A stretch of DNA of 37,686 bases from Opitutales bacterium (lineage in GTDB: Bacteria; Verrucomicrobiota; Verrucomicrobiia; Opitutales; Opitutaceae), in NCBI GenBank assembly GCA_018700525.1, contig JABITN010000092.1, positions 1 to 37,686 on the forward strand, given 5' to 3'. The notes beneath the pieces were generated by a model. It saw nothing but the letters and a program-made list of their open reading frames with translations, did no database searches and had not been told where the DNA came from. The position numbers were made by a program, and so were the translations under genes. The stretch's first letter is position 1, and each line of letters opens with the position of its first letter. This document shows, in pieces, positions 27,647 through 30,700 of this stretch.

Positions 27647-29905
<2,259 letters not shown>

Positions 29906-29952
29906 GTTATTTATTACAGTATCGCGACTAAACTGGGAGGCTCGAAAGAGAG

Positions 29953-29992
29953 ATTTCCGGATGAAATCGAATACTCGATCTCATTCGGAAAT
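29953..29992 (-). promoter_or_regulatory. Long stem-loop in the pnp leader
   Basis: On the minus strand two 18-base arms (29992-29975 and 29970-29953) pair over 17 of 18 positions, with one A-C mismatch and one G-U, around a 4-base loop (GTAT). It ends 47 bases before the pnp ATG. No T-tract follows, so it is not a terminator. In E. coli the pnp leader has a long stem cut by RNase III, after which PNPase represses its own mRNA. Position and shape fit an equivalent here, by inference. Confidence 0.65.
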
Positions 29993-30049
29993 ATCCCTGT
30001 TAGCCATATCCCCTTCAGTTGCGATTTTGGTTATTGGTTTTTTAGGTAT

Positions 30050-30095
30050 AAAAAAGGACCTGAGCCTCTGGACAGAGTCGAGAGGATGCAGGCCC
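30050..30095 (-). terminator. Rho-independent terminator between rpsO and pnp
   Basis: The minus strand folds as GGGCCTG/CAGGTCC (7 bp, one G-U), a small internal loop, and CCTCT/AGAGG (5 bp) around an 11-base loop. Six T follow (30055-30050). It lies about 70 bases after the rpsO stop, so pnp should have its own promoter in the ~145 bases that remain or depend on read-through. Confidence 0.82.
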
Positions 30096-30146
30096 AAATT
30101 AGATAAAGCGAGTGCTTCTGAATACGCAGAGCGCTCATTCGATGGC

Positions 30147-30166
30147 AAAATAGGTCGGAAACCTAT
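30147..30166 (-). terminator. Short hairpin with T-run overlapping the rpsO stop
   Basis: ATAGGT (30166-30161) pairs with ACCTAT (30155-30150) on the minus strand around a 5-base loop, ending in TTTT. The rpsO stop codon TAG lies in the stem. It is only 6 bp and A/T-rich, so it is a weak terminator or an mRNA end protector ahead of the stronger site at 30050. Confidence 0.4.
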
Positions 30167-30435
30167 CTGCGGAGATTGAGGCGCTGCAGCATCTCGTTGT
30201 ACTTAGAGAGATCGTGTTTCTTTAAGTAGTCGAGGAGCTTGCGACGGCGACTTGCCATTGCGAGGAGTCCACGGCGTGTATGGAAGTCCTTACGGTGTGT
30301 CCGCAAGTGCTCTGTTAGGTGGTTGATGCGAGCACTCAGAAGAGCGATTTGTACATCGCAGGAACCTGTGTCCGAATCGTGCGTTTTGAAGTCGCCGATG
30401 ACTTTAGTTTTATCGATTGCTTTGCTGTGTGGCAT
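30163..30435 (-). CDS. rpsO: 30S ribosomal protein S15
   Basis: A 90-residue S15, the primary 16S rRNA binding protein of the platform. Diagnostic stretches are [40 protein letters not shown] (given in part: [31 protein letters not shown]) and [13 protein letters not shown]. Length is normal (88-90). The ATG at 30435 has no Shine-Dalgarno sequence; the bases before it are A/T-rich and come from a series of hairpins. pnp follows on the same strand. Confidence 0.97.
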
Positions 30436-30446
30436 ATTAGTCTATT

Positions 30447-30509
30447 ATCTCACGGAAAAAGAGATTTCCCGTTTGGGAAACCGTTAGCCAGGCTCGTCGC
30501 CGAGCTAAC
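30447..30509 (-). promoter_or_regulatory. Hairpin-rich leader upstream of rpsO
   Basis: Three adjacent stems are seen before the rpsO ATG. 30483-30509 has GTTAG/CTAAC with an inner GCTCG/CGAGC on a 4-base loop. 30465-30480 is TTTCCC-loop-GGGAAA. 30447-30465 has 5-bp arms ATCTC/GAGAT and ends 12 bases before the start. The last two share a base and may be alternatives. rpsO leaders in several phyla bind S15 to repress translation, using unrelated structures; this could be such a site. Confidence 0.45.
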
Positions 30510-30643
30510 CGCTATTTTCCAAGATTACCCCGGAATTTCCGTGGAGGAGAGCGGGAAAACCGCAGACCTCTAGCGTAAAGGGGTCCACAAGAAGCGTTTT
30601 TTCGACTAGCGCAATACTAAAAGTAGGGCTTGGTCACGGTTCT

Positions 30644-30700
30644 GTAGCGGCCTCTGGCTACGCTCTTCGAGCTACGACAGACGTAGTCGGCGATGCCGCC
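30644..30700. repeat. Four back-to-back small hairpins (REP-like element)
   Basis: Perfect small inverted repeats tile this stretch: GTAGC/GCTAC at 30644-30661, GCTC/GAGC at 30662-30672, CTACG/CGTAG at 30672-30686 and GGCG/CGCC at 30689-30700. It lies between the stop of the response regulator (30717) and rpsO. Dense tiling with G/C-rich arms suggests an extragenic palindromic element or a structured RNA. No T-run follows for a terminator. Confidence 0.5.

Follow-up and report, generated by a model that had tools for sequence, protein, structure and literature searches.

A conserved, mismatch-bearing hairpin between rpsO and pnp in the Opitutaceae and its possible role in PNPase autocontrol

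Autocontrol of polynucleotide phosphorylase (PNPase) is best known from E. coli. There, synthesis of the enzyme is autocontrolled in an RNase III-dependent manner, as stated in PMC3839596. Excerpts of PMC5872136 describe the gap between rpsO and pnp, in E. coli as well as in Streptomyces, as holding a terminator and a second stem that is cut by RNase III. According to PMC8708148, the cut destabilises pnp mRNA of E. coli and leaves rpsO unaffected, and repression of PNPase by RNase III extends to several further bacteria, among which burgdorferi, S. coelicolor, S. pyogenes and C. jejuni are named.

In this study, we analysed the rpsO–pnp gap of an Opitutales bacterium (contig JABITN010000092.1), in which, as in E. 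coli K-12, rpsO, a terminator, a long imperfect hairpin and pnp follow one another. The locus lies in a window of 37,686 nt, by which we mean the whole stretch of DNA that was analysed, and all features named below are on its minus strand. A first-pass annotation had described a stem in the pnp leader as a possible site of RNase III/PNPase autoregulation. We follow this stem through relatives of the genus, the family and the order, and weigh the functions that the resulting picture allows.

The hairpin upstream of pnp

The pnp gene (27647–29905, ATG at 29905) was identified by an NCBIfam match over cut-off to polynucleotide phosphorylase (TIGR03591, 881 bits), and rpsO (30163–30435) likewise by a match over cut-off to ribosomal protein S15 (TIGR00952, 119.5 bits). 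The stem as first reported (29953–29992) was seen as described, with two 18-base arms (29953–29970 and 29975–29992) that enclose a GUAU tetraloop and are paired at 17 of 18 positions, with a folding energy of −20.0 kcal/mol (z −5.83) that none of 200 shuffles equalled, and it indeed begins 47 bases upstream of the pnp ATG. Its boundaries, in contrast, had been drawn too narrowly: the described arm stopped at a U·C mismatch (U29993·C29952), beyond which the helix continues outward, and the stem is the tip of a hairpin of about 105 nt (29921–30025). This whole hairpin folds at −50.7 kcal/mol in its minimum free energy (MFE) structure, compared to a shuffled mean of −26.9 kcal/mol (z −6.90, reached by none of 200 shuffles), and is built from a variable outer stem, an asymmetric internal loop, a conserved core and a variable apical stem. 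The core, as delimited by an alignment of 50 relatives and by the model R1 (a CM), spans 29948–29997 and reads GGGA-U-AUUUCCG..AUG ... CAU..CGGAAAU-C-UCUC, the single U (29993, 5' member) and the single C (29952, 3' member) forming a 1x1 mismatch that is conserved in relatives (alignment columns 17/76). Between the hairpin and the pnp start codon, the MFE structure leaves an A/U-rich stretch of 15 bases unpaired (29906–29920), and the leader as a whole (29906–30053) folds at −51.7 kcal/mol (z −7.15).

The claim that the stem follows an rpsO terminator agrees with folding of the region on the rpsO side, where a terminator-like stem (30056–30095; z −3.63, one of 200 shuffles equally good) is followed by a T-run (30050–30055). 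This feature (30050–30095) was absent from the output of a simple terminator scan. A terminator-like stem after rpsO, ACGGGCGACCCGATCCGCGGGTCGCCCGT, is sequence-conserved across many genera (rpsO-proximal leaders such as L029–L099). A scan limited to one promoter type found no sigma-70-like promoter in 29800–30700, and we therefore assume that transcription runs through the stem.

A conserved RNA element of the Opitutaceae

The hairpin is a conserved RNA element of the Opitutaceae. A search with the first 200 residues of PNPase gave matches in 10 of 11 genomes of the genus and in 138 of 150 genomes of the family, a few of them partial. From these, 94 leaders were examined, 34 taken from the searches (10 of the genus, the window's own included) and 60 chosen for genus spread, and the core was counted as present at a similarity score of at least 16 of 24 to two 12-base arms. 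By this arm score, 93 of the 94 leaders have the core between rpsO and pnp, including one doubtful case with a poor 3' arm (L032) and three (L022, L085, L100) whose scores of 17–18 do not exceed what shuffled leaders reach (up to 18) and which were retained for place and pairing; the remaining leader, L082, is without it. Three more members of the family had been missed by the model search, two of which have the core with long loops (L139, L140) and one of which does not have it (L141). Both leaders without the element, L082 and L141, belong to the same genus (g46), two other genomes of which do have it (L046, L051).

We additionally scanned a named collection, comprising 84,980 genomes by the tool's description, with a pattern that requires the arms and hence tests the place of the element, not its conservation. 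All 92 matching stretches were examined, and 91 of them adjoin rpsO or pnp (82 lie between the two genes, 3 have only pnp as a neighbour and 6 only rpsO), leaving one with neither. This last match, in a contig titled Candidatus Abyssobacteria (L218), has neither rpsO nor pnp nearby and was taken as chance. Among the 80 of the 92 matches that were listed, titles read Opitutaceae, Opitutae/Opitutia or Verrucomicrobia, with a few genus names, of which Geminisphaera and Ereboglobus belong to the Opitutaceae in the NCBI taxonomy, and one Puniceicoccaceae (L183). One contig titled as a Rubrivivax MAG (L177, JAIYCN010000209.1) has the element between rpsO and pnp; since it is 99.6% identical to L230 over its whole length and about 90% identical over 1.05–1.1 kb to L150, L189 and L204, which are titled Opitutia, Opitutaceae and Verrucomicrobia, we take it as mis-binned.

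Model R1 places the element at a single site of its own genome, where the pnp leader scores 57.0 bits (E 1.2e-11) and the next place has an E-value of 5.7 (150 of 1166 first-look candidates scored). A looser arm pattern, run over the whole genome, gave five places there, of which the four besides pnp were without matching inner pairs. In an order-wide search of 223 genomes with strict filters and 21 candidates scored per genome, R1 matched 19 genomes, of which 18 belong to the family of the window, out of its 22 members searched; among the four family members missed, two carry the element with loop insertions and the other two are without it. The nineteenth match (G204, E 0.006) does not lie at pnp, which is on another contig in that genome, and was set aside.

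The first-pass annotation had named compensatory changes in relatives as one way to check the stem, and these are strongly present. For alignment A1, we picked 50 cores for spread from the 74 with short loops, the other 19 of the 93 having longer ones. Over 21 core pairs, 90.1% of cells are paired and 14 pairs change on both sides, three never vary and four vary on one side only, with a covariation score of 0.325 versus 0.056–0.089 when partners are slid by 1 to 3 columns; as the arms were located by similarity, arm conservation is partly given by construction, and the apical pairs and the outer stem are the parts that are independent of how the element was found. Coevolution of this outer stem is visible from a swap test, in which native partners fold at −25.5 versus −15.0 kcal/mol for swapped ones among the 24 leaders of the window's type, and at −24.8 versus −18.1 kcal/mol among the ten leaders of the genus, in both cases with none of 2000 permutations as low. 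When the full structure of the window is imposed on the ten genus leaders, 86.0% of cells are paired versus 35–46% on sliding. Here the core is nearly invariant (15 of 22 core pairs never change), and in the outermost helix 8 of 13 pairs show two-sided changes. Of the five measures compared with shuffles, one, further pair types, was unexceptional, being reached by 102 of 500.

The structured RNA belongs to the pnp strand. The 75 G·U cells versus 28 A·C cells favour this sense strand, as do the R1 scores of 57.0 bits for sense versus 34.2 bits for antisense. That the antisense strand scores at all, together with the near symmetry of the helix, could be read as a sign of a DNA-level palindrome, a repeat or a transcription terminator in place of a functional RNA. 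The excess of G·U over A·C cells and the lack of a second credible genomic copy argue against a palindrome or repeat, and a terminator is opposed by the missing T-run after the hairpin stem and by the separate terminator-like stem upstream, so that we give this explanation next to no weight.

Family-wide conservation, the conserved mismatch and a second placement adjoining rpsO, which is described below, had not been foreseen by the first-pass annotation.

Placement, core anatomy and proposed function

The main reading that we weigh in the following is cleavage of the leader by RNase III in the service of PNPase autocontrol. In the rpsO-proximal type, found in 69 of the 93 leaders, the core starts at most 105 nt from the rpsO stop (58 of the 69 at 64–75 nt), with a distance to pnp that varies from 48 to 350 nt. 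The pnp-proximal type, to which the window belongs, comprises the other 24 leaders, from the window's genus and its neighbours, and is located 42–60 nt before the pnp start and 132–271 nt from the rpsO stop. MFE folds of the rpsO-proximal leaders suggest four arms: P1, a stem that closes the fold directly behind the rpsO stop; P2, a stem resembling a terminator; P2b, a small hairpin; and P3, the long hairpin. By our own thresholds, this set is complete in 39 of 69 structures (P1 in 48, P2 in 68, P2b in 51 and P3 in 69). An RNAalifold consensus on a MAFFT alignment of 39 rpsO-proximal sequences (A2) did not recover P1, P2b and the outer stem of P3. In swap tests, the mean was significant for P1, with one of 2000 permutations as low but a weak signal per genome (median rank 0.40), and also for the outer stem of P3 in this class, with none of 2000 as low and a similarly weak signal per genome (median rank 0.38). 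From these folding models, the rpsO-proximal element is likely one arm of a multibranched four-armed fold.

The tight spacing to the rpsO stop, the loose spacing to pnp and the resemblance to an arm of a multibranched structure directly behind rpsO would all suit an element that processes or stabilises the rpsO–pnp operon without any PNPase feedback, in which cutting or end protection merely uncouples rpsO from pnp mRNA. The 24 leaders tied to the pnp start at 42–60 nt do not fit this proposal, which we regard as rather unlikely. The compact multibranched fold in 39 of the 69 rpsO-proximal relatives could also be the body of a small RNA acting in trans, whose source would be the 3' region of rpsO or the pnp leader, and the E. 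coli gap does carry a gene annotated as an sRNA, sraG, albeit on the other strand. A conserved unpaired seed was not seen among the relatives, and the apical part varies freely, the core ranging from 48 to 122 nt and some members carrying repeat insertions; a small RNA is therefore very improbable in our view. As to these insertions, REP-like palindromic repeats sit in the apical loop of L039, L050, L055 and L098, the insert of L055 having 33, 52 and 20 matches in the genomes G013, G041 and G094 and none in that of the window, and L139 and L140 carry a different palindromic insert.

The apical and outer stems are variable, and the core is strictly conserved. From its 5' end, the core reads GGGA, the mismatch, AUUUCCG, two variable positions and UG; after the variable apical part, it resumes with CA, two further variable positions, CGGAAAU, the partner of the mismatch and UCUC. 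The two mismatch columns of A1 (17/76) form no standard pair in 49 of 50 sequences, with C·C in 26, A·C in 8, U·C in 5, C·U in 4, U·U in 3, C·A in 3 and a single A·U. Taken together, a helix of conserved sequence, a conserved mismatch and the tie to rpsO and pnp hint at specific recognition that goes beyond generic cutting of double-stranded RNA. RNase III sites usually need little sequence, and the strict conservation of core and mismatch therefore exceeds what a generic RNase III role would ask for; a purely generic role is hard to square with so strict a core, with selection on the mismatch and with the rpsO–pnp tie. We found no support for reading the core as a general signature of RNase III: the window's genome has no further credible site.

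These features could also be explained by a sequence-specific operator that is bound by PNPase through its KH/S1 domains, or by another protein binding double-stranded RNA, such that binding would control translation or decay and RNase III would be secondary. The strict core with its three invariant and four one-sided pairs, the column pair that does not pair in 49 of 50 sequences and the occurrence of the element in the rpsO–pnp gap only are in line with such an operator, and the long outer stems of freely changing sequence better fit a nuclease of double-stranded RNA. We consider a putative operator of this kind decidedly unlikely as the primary function.

We return to RNase III cleavage for PNPase autocontrol, as in E. 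coli and without sequence similarity to it, as the most likely function of the leader, to which we assign moderate confidence. The layout of E. coli and Streptomyces is shared, and RNase III is encoded: the window's genome has it at G000:C165:15866-16519 (TIGR02191, 199.8 bits versus a cut-off of 166.25), and it scores over cut-off in all 12 genomes tested. In the proposed mechanism, the conserved cis-acting element of the Opitutaceae rpsO–pnp transcript would fold into a long double-stranded hairpin, which RNase III would cut, so that rpsO and pnp become separated and pnp retains a processed leader. On this cut double-stranded leader PNPase would then act, thereby limiting its own mRNA. The conserved mismatch may fix the position of the cut or confine it to one strand. 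Several observations count against this reading. In 69 of 93 leaders the position of the element follows the rpsO stop and not the pnp start, two of the genomes tested (L082, L141) have RNase III yet no element, the genome of the window offers no second credible site and its leader no sequence similarity to that of E. coli, and transcription through the stem has to be assumed. On balance, the interpretation of the leader as a site of RNase III/PNPase autoregulation, with which the first-pass annotation had started, is strengthened and partly supported by the comparison of relatives, and it is one that we infer by analogy.

Other families of the order and known pnp leaders

To place the element within the order, we considered 57 leaders of other families, 37 of which were core-scored and scanned with R1 without filters, and the last 20 (L236–L255) inspected by eye and by motif only. 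The Opitutaceae core is absent from the 37 scored leaders, whose best scores of 13–16 compare with 18 reached by shuffled family leaders. The sole R1 matches at E <= 1 among these 37 were L118 (E 0.0017), a palindromic stretch that matched on both strands, and L121 (E 0.1).

Several other families have leaders with long hairpins of their own. In family f21, 7 of 11 leaders (L131, L132, L236–L239, L244) contain a hairpin of the form (U/C)AGGAAGU-C-CGC...GCG-A-(A/G)CUUCCU(A/G), located 44–81 nt upstream of pnp. Its C·A mismatch is invariant, and over these seven sequences only, 97.3% of cells pair and 5 of 16 pairs show two-sided changes. In family f8, 4 of 6 leaders (L113, L114, L247, L248) have a pnp-leader hairpin with the common 3' arm GCCTCATrTCAC. 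A further motif, GTCCKATCC, starts 31–53 nt before pnp in five families (f11, f12, f16, f20 and f23; L118–L121, L124, L129, L135), seemingly framed by a short stem in several leaders, and is present in 3 of 94 leaders of the window's family. As a tentative generalisation, which we regard as possible but doubtful, each lineage of the Opitutales could have its own double-stranded operator in the pnp leader, conserved in sequence, bearing a conserved mismatch and read specifically by PNPase or an adapted RNase III, so that these leaders would be more than generic RNase III stems. The Opitutaceae and f21 elements would be two versions of it, the regulatory principle persisting as the operator sequence is replaced between families.

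Searches against Rfam release 15 assigned no family to the element at gathering score, the only hit in the window being a tRNA elsewhere, and permissive searches with the window's leader and the loci of seven relatives gave matches far below gathering scores only; these, 'mir' among them, were taken as chance matches to hairpins. No published description of the element was found in titles and abstracts among the matches listed, a search whose coverage excludes most subscription journals. The element, a structured RNA found family-wide, is new and occupies the site of a known regulatory device, and it adds an RNA family to be annotated.

Compared to E. coli, the hairpins are alike in length class (97 nt there in the MFE structure versus 105 nt here). 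The first-pass statement that the sequence is unrelated to the E. coli leader holds, the core score of that leader being 14 and thus within the background of 282 shuffled family leaders (mean 14.8, maximum 18), and R1 gives no match in it (L235) at E <= 1. Streptomyces coelicolor likewise has an intergenic hairpin after the rpsO terminator, which is cut by RNase III there; no sequence-conserved core is described in the excerpts of PMC5872136, and the likeness to its hairpin is drawn from layout. What sets the Opitutaceae element apart from that of E. coli is a core that is strictly conserved throughout the family, together with its conserved mismatch, and a position adjoining rpsO in most sampled leaders, cleavage here being predicted. 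In a distant phylum, this genomic position holds an RNA element with a defined core, a defined mismatch and a second placement, which roughly one hundred sampled genomes have retained and a few have naturally lost. Such a set of genomes allows one to ask experimentally whether structure preserves the autocontrol of RNA decay as its sequence changes, and whether the RNase III or PNPase of a bacterium can read sequence within double-stranded RNA.
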